Positions 28,883 to 33,464 of a DNA stretch of 37,945 nt are shown here, piece after piece. Numbering within the stretch: position 1 is the first letter of the stretch; the number at the start of each line of letters is the position of its first letter. The stretch is from Thermoproteota archaeon (GTDB lineage Archaea > Thermoproteota > Bathyarchaeia > Bathyarchaeales > Bathycorpusculaceae): contig JAAZBP010000084.1 in NCBI GenBank assembly GCA_012513715.1, positions 1 to 37,945 of the forward strand. Reading direction: 5' to 3'. Below the pieces are notes generated by a model. The model ran no database searches. It worked only from the letters and a program-made list of their open reading frames with translations, and had not been told where the DNA came from. The translations under genes and the position numbers were made by a program.

Positions 28883-29236
28883 ATGAGATTAATAGCGGTA
28901 ATTGGCGGAGTAATTGCTGCAGTATTGTTCTTTTTTGCAGTAATATTTGCATTAGCTTCATCTGTGCAAGCAACTACATCGCGACTTGCCATAAGCATTA
29001 TCCTATTTGCAGTTGGTTTAGCAATAATTGCTGGAATATACTATGTTACACGTAAACCCAAAACTGTTATCCAGCGCCTTGAGCTTTCTGGAGAAATGAA
29101 AGCTGCTCAAATTCGATGCCCCAACTGTTCAGGTGTAGCTGATGTGAACCAAATAAAAATAGTTTCAGGGGTACCATACATTAAATGTGCTTATTGTGGA
29201 AACATGTTTGAGGTTGTTGAGGAACCGAAATGGTAA
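28883..29236 (+). CDS. Two-TM protein with C-terminal zinc ribbon
   Basis: Two hydrophobic N-terminal helices, then CPNC...CAYC. Stop overlaps the next ATG (ATGGTAA region). Confidence 0.75.
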   Translation: MRLIAVIGGVIAAVLFFFAVIFALASSVQATTSRLAISIILFAVGLAIIAGIYYVTRKPKTVIQRLELSGEMKAAQIRCPNCSGVADVNQIKIVSGVPYIKCAYCGNMFEVVEEPKW

Positions 29237-30849
29237 GAAGAAGACAACTTTTATTTTTGATTATAGTTGGGTTATTTGTTTTTTCTTTAGTTAACTTTTC
29301 GGCGGCTCAAAGTATCGAGTATAGTGTTGATCATCAATGGTGTCAAATCTTTATTAATCAAGATGGAACAATCGACTTGAAATACAATGTTACTTTAACA
29401 GTTACTTCAGGAAAAATCAATGGGTTCTATGTGGGCCAACCGAACAGTGATTTTACACCTGGCATAGCTTTAGATCAGAATAACAATTTGTTAGATGTTT
29501 TTGATGCGAGTAGTGGCAGCGACTACAAAATAGATGTAATCTTGTATGAGCCATTAACAGCTGGTAATTCTTTATGGTTCACAGTTACCACTAACGTAGC
29601 AGGTATGATATTCAATGATACCACAAACCCCGGTAACTTAGGGCTTAGATTCGCGCCACAGTGGATTTCAGATAAGACAATAAATGATGTACGGGTACAG
29701 ATTATTTTGCCAGAAGGTGTATCCTCTGGAGACTACGCAACTGAAAACCTTCCCAACGGCACCTCAACAGTTGAAGGCAGATTGGCTCTTTACTGGGAAA
29801 AAGCGTATCTAGAGCCTAATGAAAGGTTCTTTTTCGGAGTTTCTTTTCCAGCTGAATTCATGCCTGATTATAAACCAAGCGAAGACAGCTTTCAAGGTTT
29901 AGCTGTAGTAATTGCGGGTGTTGTAGCTTTCCTGTTTGCAACTTTCAGTTTCATTTTTGTACTCTCTAGAGTTGGGAAAAACAAGTATGCCTCTCCGAAA
30001 ATTAGTATGGAAACTTTAGGCATTAAACGTGGTTTAACAGCTATAGAAGCAGCATACCTTTTAGATTTAAAGCCGCAGCAAATCATTACCGCAACCCTTT
30101 ACAGTCTATTACATAAGAGGGCAGTTTGGGTAGAAAAACCGAATCCAGCAGTTAAAATCAAATTGTTACCGCCCTACGAAGACAAAATTGGCACAAAAGA
30201 AAATCCCTTAAGATACTATGAAATTGATTTTCTTAACTCGTTAAAAACTGATGGTACATTAAACGAGGAAAAACTGGCCCGCACTATTATGACCCTCCGA
30301 GATACAGTTGAGAAAAAGATAGAAGGTTACAGCAGAAAAGAAACAGTAGAGTACTACCGCAAAATAGTGGATAAAGCATGGAAACAAGTGGAGTTGGCAG
30401 GTACCCCTGAATTAGCATCTAACGCTTATGATGAACAGTTACTTTGGTTGATGCTTGATCCCAATCAGAGACAGCGTACAACAACAGTTTTCCAGGATAA
30501 AGTGTTTCAGCCTAATCCGCTTTGGTACTGGTGGTGGTATGGTTACGGAACTTATCATCCGCATCCCACGTATAAGCCGGATGTTAAAGCACCAACGCAA
30601 TCAAGTAAGCCGCCTGTTATTCCAGGCGCAGAATTCGCTGATAACATAGCAACATCTATTGAAACTACAGCAAATAGTATAGTGGCTAATATTGAGAAAT
30701 TTGCTAATTCTATTGTTCCGCCACCGCCGAAAGTATCACATCAACCAGCTCGGAAAGGGAGCAGTTGTGTTTGTGCGTGTGCAGCATGTGCATGCGCCTG
30801 TGCGTGTGTTTCATGTGCATGTGCATGTGCGGGTGGAGGTGCGCATTAA
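29230..30849 (+). CDS. DUF2207-like predicted membrane protein with a Cys/Ala-repeat C-terminal tail (candidate rSAM substrate)
   Basis: Signal peptide (QLLFLIIVGLFVFSLVNFSAAQS), beta-rich ectodomain, TM (GLAVVIAGVVAFLFATFSFIFVLS), then a predicted cytoplasmic region ending GSSCVCACAACACACACVSCACACAGGGAH (10 Cys). Stop abuts the rSAM ATG. Confidence 0.82.
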   Translation: MVRRRQLLFLIIVGLFVFSLVNFSAAQSIEYSVDHQWCQIFINQDGTIDLKYNVTLTVTSGKINGFYVGQPNSDFTPGIALDQNNNLLDVFDASSGSDYKIDVILYEPLTAGNSLWFTVTTNVAGMIFNDTTNPGNLGLRFAPQWISDKTINDVRVQIILPEGVSSGDYATENLPNGTSTVEGRLALYWEKAYLEPNERFFFGVSFPAEFMPDYKPSEDSFQGLAVVIAGVVAFLFATFSFIFVLSRVGKNKYASPKISMETLGIKRGLTAIEAAYLLDLKPQQIITATLYSLLHKRAVWVEKPNPAVKIKLLPPYEDKIGTKENPLRYYEIDFLNSLKTDGTLNEEKLARTIMTLRDTVEKKIEGYSRKETVEYYRKIVDKAWKQVELAGTPELASNAYDEQLLWLMLDPNQRQRTTTVFQDKVFQPNPLWYWWWYGYGTYHPHPTYKPDVKAPTQSSKPPVIPGAEFADNIATSIETTANSIVANIEKFANSIVPPPPKVSHQPARKGSSCVCACAACACACACVSCACACAGGGAH

Positions 30850-32184
30850 ATGGATTTTTTGAAGAAGAAAAAGATACCGATGGGACGTTACACATATCGT
30901 GGCGAAGGCGAATTTTCAGGCATGTCCCTGCAGCTTCGAGTTGAACAGGCGGGTCGGGGGGTAATGGTGATAAACGCAAACACTGTACTCCACCTTAACC
31001 AGTCAGCTACAGCTTTTGCATATTACTTTATGCAGGGAATGCCAGAAAAAGAAGTTTTATCGAAAATATCGCAGATGTATAGGGTTAAAGCTGAAAAAGC
31101 CAAAGTAGACTACGAGAAACTCATCTATACAATCAGCACTCTAGCGCAAACTGAAAAAATTGATCCAGTGACATTTCTTGAAATTGAAAAAGAAGAACCA
31201 TTCACCTACAAGTATACAGCACCCTTACGTATGGATATGGCTTTGACGTTCAAATGCCAAAACGACTGTGTACACTGTTATGCAGGCGGATCACATCAGA
31301 CAACAGAACTCACGACAGAACAGTGGAAGCAGGTGATTGAGAAATTAAGCGAAGTTGGAGTGTTTATTTTAACTTTTACAGGCGGAGAACCTACATTACG
31401 AGACGATTTACCTGAACTGTTGGAGTATGCTCAGAATAAGGGGATAGTTACAGGCTTGATTAGTAACGGTCGTAAACTAAAAGATGAAAAATACGTTGAT
31501 ACACTAGAGAAAGCAGGTTTAGACTTTGTACAAATAACATTAGAGTCACATTTGCCGAAAGTACACGATGCCATGACCAACTCAGAGGGAAGCTGGAAAG
31601 ACACTGTTAAAGGAATAAAAAACGTTGTAAAATCAGAGATTTATGTGTCCACTAACACAACTCTAAGCAGACACAACGCTGGCGAATTCCTAAAAACCAT
31701 AGACTACATACAAGAGTTAGGGGTAGACGCGTTTGGCTGCAACAGCCTCATCTATTCAGGTAAAGCGTCAACAGTAAGTGAAGAATTCGCTTTAACAATA
31801 GATGAGTTGAAGTCGCTTCTGCCTAAAGTTAAAGAGAAAGCTCAACTTTTAAGCCTCAAATTCCTGTGGTATACACCTACACAGTATTGTCAATTTAACC
31901 CAGTTCAGTTTGGGTTAGGAGTAAAAAGCTGTACCGCTGCCCTGATCAATGCATGCGTAGGACCTAACGGAGATGTCTATCCCTGTCAAAGCTATTTTGA
32001 AAGCTTAGGAAACATACTTACTGAGCAATGGGAAAAAATTTGGAGCCACCCACTGGCAGAAAAACTTCGAAGCAGAAGCTATGCAGAAGAAAAATGTAAA
32101 GACTGCAGCGACTTACAAGTTTGCGGTGCAGGTTGCCCTCTAGAACTTCAAGATAAAGAACATAAATGCACCTCACCAGGTTAA
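30850..32184 (+). CDS. Radical SAM/SPASM protein with PqqD/RRE-like N-terminal domain
   Basis: CQNDCVHC (CX3CX2C) radical SAM motif, TFTGGEPTLRDDL, and a C-terminal SPASM-type Cys region (CVGPNGDVYPCQSYFESLGNI...CKDCSDLQVCGAGCPLE). N-terminal ~90 aa resemble PqqD (VINANTVLHLNQSATAFAYYFMQGMPEKEVLSKI). Confidence 0.92.
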   Translation: MDFLKKKKIPMGRYTYRGEGEFSGMSLQLRVEQAGRGVMVINANTVLHLNQSATAFAYYFMQGMPEKEVLSKISQMYRVKAEKAKVDYEKLIYTISTLAQTEKIDPVTFLEIEKEEPFTYKYTAPLRMDMALTFKCQNDCVHCYAGGSHQTTELTTEQWKQVIEKLSEVGVFILTFTGGEPTLRDDLPELLEYAQNKGIVTGLISNGRKLKDEKYVDTLEKAGLDFVQITLESHLPKVHDAMTNSEGSWKDTVKGIKNVVKSEIYVSTNTTLSRHNAGEFLKTIDYIQELGVDAFGCNSLIYSGKASTVSEEFALTIDELKSLLPKVKEKAQLLSLKFLWYTPTQYCQFNPVQFGLGVKSCTAALINACVGPNGDVYPCQSYFESLGNILTEQWEKIWSHPLAEKLRSRSYAEEKCKDCSDLQVCGAGCPLELQDKEHKCTSPG

Positions 32185-32231: not shown

Positions 32232-33464
32232 ATGGTTCAAAGGGATAAACAGAAACTGGTGGTCTTTGACGTTGAAGGAGTACTTATCCCTAGAAACCGT
32301 TTTCTATTTGATCTTGGGAAGAAAGCAGGGTTAATTGTTCTTTTAAAAGTGTTTTTCTACGGCTTTCTCTATGAAGCAGGCATATTAAATTTAGAATCAA
32401 CTTTGAGAAGAATTTTTAAGAATTTAAAAGGAACAAAAATTGATACAATCCTTGAAATTTTCAGCAGAATTCCTTCAAGACCATATCTGCAAAATCTTTG
32501 TCAACAACTAAAAGCTAGAAATTGTAAAGTCGCCCTAATCAGTTCTGGAATACCAACCGTAACTCTAGAAAAACTATCAGTTGCTTTGGGCGCTGACTAT
32601 GTTTACGGAGTCGAAGTGGAAATCATAAATGGAAAATTAACTGGAGAAATTTTAGGTGAAGCAATAAGCAAAAATGGAAAATTCAAGATTCTAAGCGAAA
32701 TCCTGCAGCGTGAAGGATTATCCGATAACGACTGCATAGTTGTTGCTGACGACCGAAATAACAGTTGCATATTCCTGCCGGACATGTTAAAAATCGGATT
32801 TAACCCAGACTTCATAATCAGAGTAAAAGCAGACAGAGTTGTCAACGGTAAACTATCAAATATTTTGCCCATAATAGATGGAAAACGCAAACAATACAGG
32901 CTGGAAACTAATGACTTAGTCAGAGAAACCATCCATGCCTCAGGATTATTCATGCCAATAATCGCAGGAATCGTCGGTTTACAATTTGTTGTTTTAACTA
33001 TTATTTTAATAGCAGCTGCGTACACGATATCAGAATTGGCAAGGTTAGAGAAGATTTCTGTACCAGTTATTTCTCATATAACTCGAAATGCTGCATCCAC
33101 TTCTGAACTATACGGCTTCGCTGCAGCACCGCTATATTTTGCATTCGGAATCACCTCAACACTGATACTTTTCCCTACGACAGCTGGGGCAGCAGCCATA
33201 GCAATGTTCTGTTTAGGAGACAGCACTGCATCACTTTTCGGAGGATCAGTTTCTGATGCTTTACCATTTAACAAGGGAAAAACATGGGAGGGTACACTAT
33301 CAGGATTTTTCTTTGCCTTTTTAGGCGGATGCCTTTTTGTTCCCCCATTAATCGCGTTAGTTGGGGCTGCTGTAGCGATGACTATAGAAGTTTTACCTTC
33401 ACCCATAAATGATAATATAACAGTACCAATCATAACAGGTGCTTTGTTGACGTTATTACTCTAA
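32232..33464 (+). CDS. Fusion of HAD (SerB-like) phosphatase with a dolichol/phytol-kinase-like (CTP-dependent) membrane domain
   Basis: HAD motifs VVFDVEGVLIP, LISSGIP, VVADDRNNS. C-terminal multi-TM region with CLGDSTASLFGGSV...NKGKTWEGTLSGFF and EVLPSPINDNITVPI, as in SEC59/VTE5-type kinases. Confidence 0.8.
   Translation: MVQRDKQKLVVFDVEGVLIPRNRFLFDLGKKAGLIVLLKVFFYGFLYEAGILNLESTLRRIFKNLKGTKIDTILEIFSRIPSRPYLQNLCQQLKARNCKVALISSGIPTVTLEKLSVALGADYVYGVEVEIINGKLTGEILGEAISKNGKFKILSEILQREGLSDNDCIVVADDRNNSCIFLPDMLKIGFNPDFIIRVKADRVVNGKLSNILPIIDGKRKQYRLETNDLVRETIHASGLFMPIIAGIVGLQFVVLTIILIAAAYTISELARLEKISVPVISHITRNAASTSELYGFAAAPLYFAFGITSTLILFPTTAGAAAIAMFCLGDSTASLFGGSVSDALPFNKGKTWEGTLSGFFFAFLGGCLFVPPLIALVGAAVAMTIEVLPSPINDNITVPIITGALLTLLL

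Follow-up and report, generated by a model that had tools for sequence, protein, structure and literature searches.

Gene organisation and the carrier membrane protein

The window, by which the whole analysed stretch of 37,945 nucleotides is meant, contains a group of three adjoining genes on the forward strand (Table 1). The central gene encodes a membrane protein whose C-terminal end, SSCVCACAACACACACVSCACACAGGGAH, is dominated by a regular array of cysteines. It is followed by a gene for a radical SAM enzyme and overlapped at its start by a short gene with a zinc-ribbon-like end.

Table 1. Features of the tail locus, with window positions and the evidence for each
Feature	Position	Strand	Basis
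117-aa protein with a hydrophobic N-terminal half, the C-terminal half resembling a zinc ribbon (CPNC...CAYC)	28883..29236	+	weak zinc-ribbon matches
Tail protein, 539 aa, divergent DUF2207-like single-pass membrane protein	29230..30849	+	homologues, Pfam, AF2 model
Predicted extracytoplasmic beta domain, residues 30-207	29317..29850	+	AF2 model, Foldseek; DUF2207 N-domain in 3/27 homologues
Predicted transmembrane helix, residues 222-247	29893..29970	+	AF2 model
Conserved helix before the tail, residues 463-497, candidate enzyme-docking segment	30616..30720	+	80% mean column identity; modelled helix 466-495
Variable Pro/His/Lys linker, residues 498-512	30721..30765	+	54% mean column identity
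Cys array CVCACAACACACACVSCACACA, residues 513-534	30766..30831	+	sequence, codon analysis, pattern scan, tail listing
Terminal GGGAH	30832..30846	+	homologues with [GSH]-G-G or a near variant
RRE-radical SAM-SPASM enzyme, 444 aa, beginning directly after the stop codon of the tail gene	30850..32184	+	domains, alignment, AF2, fold search
PqqD-like RRE domain, enzyme residues 12-100	30883..31149	+	PqqD match in 19/24 homologues; strand/helix order in the model
CxxxCxxC radical SAM cluster motif, C136, C140, C143	31255..31278	+	invariant in 24/24
SPASM region, C361 to C429	31930..32136	+	PF13186 in 24/24; C361, C379, C416, C419, C425, C429 invariant

The tail protein matches no named family above cut-off. 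Its copy in the window gives no match to the DUF2207 models PF09972/PF20990 and thus lies below Pfam detection; among 27 homologues, the DUF2207 N-domain is found in three (best 1.6e-5) and the C-domain, weakly, in one (0.023). In the AF2 model (mean pLDDT 76, pTM 0.43), single domains are confident and their relative placement is not. The model comprises a hydrophobic N-terminal helix (residues 3-21), the beta domain, the transmembrane-type helix, a helical domain at about 271-421, the helix before the tail and a low-confidence end (487-535). This is the DUF2207 layout of signal helix, outer beta domain, transmembrane helix and cytosolic domain, and the protein is best called divergent DUF2207-like. 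Because it has a signal helix, an outer domain and one transmembrane helix followed by basic residues, the tail is predicted to lie on the cytosolic side of the membrane.

In a fold search, Foldseek ranked highest structures of M1 aminopeptidases and of oligosaccharyltransferase complexes, in the latter the ribophorin I chain; whole-chain TM scores are low because a single domain aligns. The part concerned is the beta domain, which resembles ribophorin I, a eukaryotic oligosaccharyltransferase subunit, and the M1 aminopeptidase chains, and one homologue gives a weak Pfam match to Ribophorin_I (0.0038).

Conservation of the cysteine array

The ten cysteines of the tail stand at residues 513, 515, 517, 520, 522, 524, 526, 529, 531 and 533, so that C513-C533 corresponds to 30766-30828; the array occupies 22 of the 539 residues of the membrane protein. 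It contains multiple CxC/CxxC motifs, the tail is without Tyr, Trp, Lys and Glu, and the only cysteine elsewhere in the protein is C38. Re-reading of the ORF reproduced exactly the frame, coordinates and Cys spacing reported in an earlier note on this DNA. ORFs in other frames or strands across the tail were set aside as overlapping by-products, rich in His or Cys and unsupported.

Three sources supplied the homologues: 101 relatives, of which 39 gave a match; named GTDB contigs, with 17 loci; and 400 genomes of the phylum. Most of the genomes are metagenome assemblies. The array is present in all intact homologues fetched, and nearly all distinct tails share the spacing 2-2-3-2-2-2-3-2-2. The 3-4-3 symmetry described in the earlier note is the usual form, and it is not universal. 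A 3-3-3 form with nine Cys, in which one Cys-Ala unit is lost, occurs in L003/L032. L067, L068 and L070 have a 2-4-3 form, again with nine Cys, whose first segment is shorter. The breaks between segments measure exactly two residues in all listed tails, and the last segment always reads CACACA, followed by GGG, SGG, HGG or a near variant. A spacer is replaced by His in a few copies (L018, L047). The tail ORFs of L045 and L027 run a few residues beyond the usual end (GGVGIAEGRK and GGVGLKK, respectively), so the position of the C-terminal carboxylate is not strictly fixed. Short tail ORFs in L075 and L077 arise from runs of N in the record and represent no real short form.

The tail also occurs in families beyond the class of the window (f20, f38, f59, f63), and its length is nearly constant across many genera and a second class. 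Every named record that the tail protein hit is from Candidatus Bathyarchaeota, which places the window in that group; viral contigs yielded no relative. A scan of the 400 genomes of the phylum with a degenerate DNA version of C[AV]C[AV]xCACA found matches in 28, always within the tail gene family, and the reversed-pattern control gave zero matches in the same genomes.

Codon analysis of 38 aligned ten-Cys tails gave mean pairwise differences per site of 0.041, 0.042 and 0.608 at codon positions 1, 2 and 3. Third positions are saturated and the first two barely vary; at all ten Cys and six Ala columns the amino acid is invariant and the codons are scrambled. The Cys tail is thus a selected feature under extreme purifying selection, with the ordered spacing that the earlier note had described. 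That note had also named tail-less close homologues, or homologues with random Cys spacing, as evidence to the contrary, and neither appeared when the tails were aligned.

Mean column majority identity is 97% in the tail, 80% in the helix before it, 75% in the cytosolic domain, 62% in the ectodomain and 54% in the linker. Judged from sequence, a conserved helix that leads through a variable linker into a hyper-conserved Cys core reads as the layout of a precursor peptide, here placed at the end of a membrane protein.

The radical SAM enzyme and its pairing with the tail gene

Radical SAM and SPASM domains were detected in all 24 aligned enzyme homologues and an N-terminal PqqD match in 19 of them (best 3.6e-5); besides the cysteines listed in Table 1, C347 is likewise invariant in this set. 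In the AF2 model of the enzyme (pLDDT 83, pTM 0.86), the N-terminus forms four strands and three helices in an RRE-like arrangement. The solved structures closest by sequence are SkfB and PqqE, and those closest by fold are SkfB, SuiB and 5why (CteB, a sactipeptide thioether enzyme). With the peptide maturases SkfB, SuiB and CteB, the enzyme aligns over more than 400 columns. No cut-off was reached for any NCBIfam radical SAM/SPASM subfamily scored (NirJ2, AhbD, mycofactocin, PqqE, ACGX, SkfB, AlbA and others), the highest score being 155.8 bits for TIGR04055, whose cut-off is 500.

The tail gene and the enzyme gene form a pair. The enzyme gene lies directly after the tail gene in nearly all loci, and the 117-aa zinc-ribbon-like gene is kept as a neighbour in 21 of the 29 mapped loci. 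In L067 and L070 the order has changed, with the zinc-ribbon gene divergently oriented and the enzyme gene beyond it, and the trio is still together; its linkage outlasts gene rearrangement. When 400 genomes of the phylum were searched with two profiles, 27 contained both genes, three the tail only, two the enzyme only and 368 neither, so that both occur together in 27 of the 32 genomes having either. A genome with a distant 20-bit match and no tail (G112) was excluded from these counts. Fisher's exact test gives p 2e-36 for this co-occurrence, a value that ignores genome relatedness. Within the genus of the window, seven genomes have both genes, nine have neither and none is discordant (p 9e-5, again ignoring relatedness); since co-occurrence is patchy inside this one genus, the concern about relatedness is reduced. 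Divergences of the tail protein and the enzyme correlate with r = 0.95 across 15 loci, a coefficient that shared ancestry also raises.

Two of the three tail-only genomes (G057, G084) have a contig that ends within the tail gene, and the third (G052) holds both genes in pieces side by side. At this last locus (L076) the two genes are broken as if lost together, with assembly error as a possible cause. The enzyme-only genomes, G321 and G442, belong to one genus, and no array-like pattern was found in either; the enzyme may have another substrate there. Its orthologues lie at 4273-5628 of L088 and 5648-7027 of L089, and a second SPASM-like radical SAM gene is located nearby in both.

No gene for a protease, an exporter, metal transport or metal regulation is conserved around the trio in the mapped loci. 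Genes past the trio are common to near relatives almost exclusively and are therefore uninformative on function. One such gene in the window, at 32232-33464 on the forward strand and in a position common to near relatives only, encodes a HAD-IB phosphatase domain (SerB-like) with a long hydrophobic C-terminal half; its GDxxAS...GKTWEGT stretch presumably recalls polyprenol/phytol kinases.

Candidate chemistries of the tail and known systems

The earlier note had raised iterative thioether formation as one possible role of the tail, and thioether formation by the adjacent radical SAM enzyme is now the best-supported reading, given the co-occurrence and linkage of the two genes, the RRE and SPASM domains of the enzyme and SkfB, SuiB and CteB as its nearest structures. 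The tail would be the substrate of the adjacent enzyme, most probably receiving thioether bridges and remaining anchored in the membrane; we place the probability of this reading at roughly 0.6. The PqqD-like RRE domain would dock on the conserved helix before the tail, after which the radical SAM and SPASM centres would act on the Cys-x-Cys segments, working along the array. In the most probable bridges, the sulfur of a Cys would be bonded to a carbon of an Ala, Val, Ser or Gly in its vicinity. The chain may turn tightly at the two-residue breaks; its three short strands would then fold back on one another, every Cys facing one side and the spacers the other. From spacing alone, the Cys could then align in the rows C513-C524-C531, C515-C522-C533, C517-C520 and C526-C529. 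The modified tail is expected to stay attached, because no protease or exporter is conserved. Uncleaved, it would form the cytosolic terminus of a protein that crosses the membrane once and carries the DUF2207-like domain outside, and would serve as a rigid or redox/metal-active module.

A more specific form of this proposal is put forward tentatively, at somewhat less than even odds. In it, the enzyme would convert the three CxC segments to a sheet held by multiple thioether bridges, or to a partly bridged and metal-loaded one. The sheet would remain attached at the inner terminus of an archaeal membrane protein of the DUF2207 type and act as a tethered cofactor or sensor module rather than as a released peptide. 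Purifying selection, adjacency, co-occurrence, correlated divergence, the RRE and SPASM domains, the maturase-like structure and the precursor-peptide layout all speak for the main reading, with the tail as substrate of the adjacent enzyme. Against that reading stand the enzyme without a detectable tail in one genus, the lack of a conserved protease or exporter, unlike usual sactipeptide clusters, and the fact that the possible acceptors in the tail are mostly Ala. The sactisynthase RumMC2 tolerates an Ala acceptor (PMC8188230); AlbA in vivo does not act on Ala acceptors (PMC8172795).

The main rival is a membrane-tethered metallothionein, in which the CxC/CxxC thiols would stay free and sense or buffer metal by binding Cu(I), Zn or iron-sulfide clusters, with the enzyme playing an auxiliary part or modifying only a few positions. 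CxC ranks among the most frequent motifs in metallothioneins; dense metal binding therefore stays a live rival, and the earlier note's view that the spacing is unlike that of metallothioneins is not supported. The small spacers are typical of metallothioneins as well, and the zinc-ribbon-like end of the third trio member and the His that replaces a spacer in a few copies point the same way. Nevertheless, we consider this reading unlikely, for usual metallothioneins are short and spacer-tolerant, whereas Ala, Val and Ser spacers are nearly fixed here over several families. The tight pairing with an enzyme of the peptide-maturase type would be left unexplained, and no conserved gene for metal transport or regulation accompanies the trio.

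A different SPASM reaction on the tail, such as conversion of Cys to formylglycine, epimerisation, decarboxylation or C-C cross-linking, would agree with the place of the enzyme in no named subfamily and with the matches of its model to anSME, EpeE, SuiB and PqqE in the fold search. Such a reaction is judged rather improbable: the best match by both sequence and fold is SkfB, which forms thioethers, and several of these reactions need Tyr, Trp, Lys or Glu, which a tail with ten Cys does not offer. Functionless repeat slippage or assembly error, to which the repetitive look of the tail, the lost unit and the shortened first segments might point, is refuted by the codon analysis and the pattern scan and has practically no probability left, with saturated synonymous sites over fixed amino acids, near-constant length and confinement of the pattern to one gene family.

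A search of the open-access literature, with subscription papers outside its range, found no published description of the tail/enzyme pair in archaea and no link between DUF2207, radical SAM enzymes and Cys-rich tails; DUF2207 is mentioned in seven open-access papers, and papers on the Methanococcus voltae proteome and on phage shock proved unrelated to the tail system. The analysis suggests an undescribed, chemically modified Cys tail at the archaeal cell membrane. If the thioether reading is true, radical SAM peptide modification is not confined to short, mostly secreted peptides and reaches a tail that stays part of a membrane protein in archaea. The hosts are uncultured archaea, and their lineages have almost no experimental biology. 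The regularity of the tail would make it a clean test case for how an enzyme handles Cys-x-Cys arrays, and the system provides a handle on the role of DUF2207-type membrane proteins.

Typical DUF2207 members carry a low-complexity, Gly-rich C-terminal tail. The window protein shares their architecture, including a low-complexity tail; it differs from them in falling below Pfam detection, in the Cys-rich character of this tail and in its linked radical SAM enzyme. Metallothioneins resemble the array in their dense CxC/CxxC motifs and small spacers. They are, however, short cytosolic proteins consisting mostly of the Cys domain, whereas here the array belongs to a membrane protein, has near-invariant spacers and spacing, and is accompanied by a constant enzyme partner.

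Retention of thioethers in a working protein has a counterpart in QhpD, a radical SAM/SPASM enzyme that makes thioethers in the gamma subunit of quinohemoprotein amine dehydrogenase. They are kept in the functional protein and not in a released peptide, as is proposed for the tail; the gamma subunit, by contrast, is part of an enzyme and soluble, and its links join Cys to Asp/Glu.

The closest systems are those of sactipeptides and ranthipeptides (SkfA-SkfB, ruminococcin C-RumMC2, CteB), in which an RRE-radical SAM-SPASM enzyme likewise lies beside a Cys-rich substrate, and SkfB and CteB are among the solved structures nearest to the enzyme. The locus has such a maturase with an adjoining Cys-rich substrate candidate. 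In place of a short leader precursor that is cleaved and exported, this candidate is the C-terminal tail of a 539-aa archaeal membrane protein, with ten Cys in a CxC array, no conserved protease or exporter, and thioethers that are predicted. Since a short released precursor is absent and the cross-links are predicted ones, the pair is described as a variant of radical SAM maturase and substrate and is kept apart from the sactipeptides.
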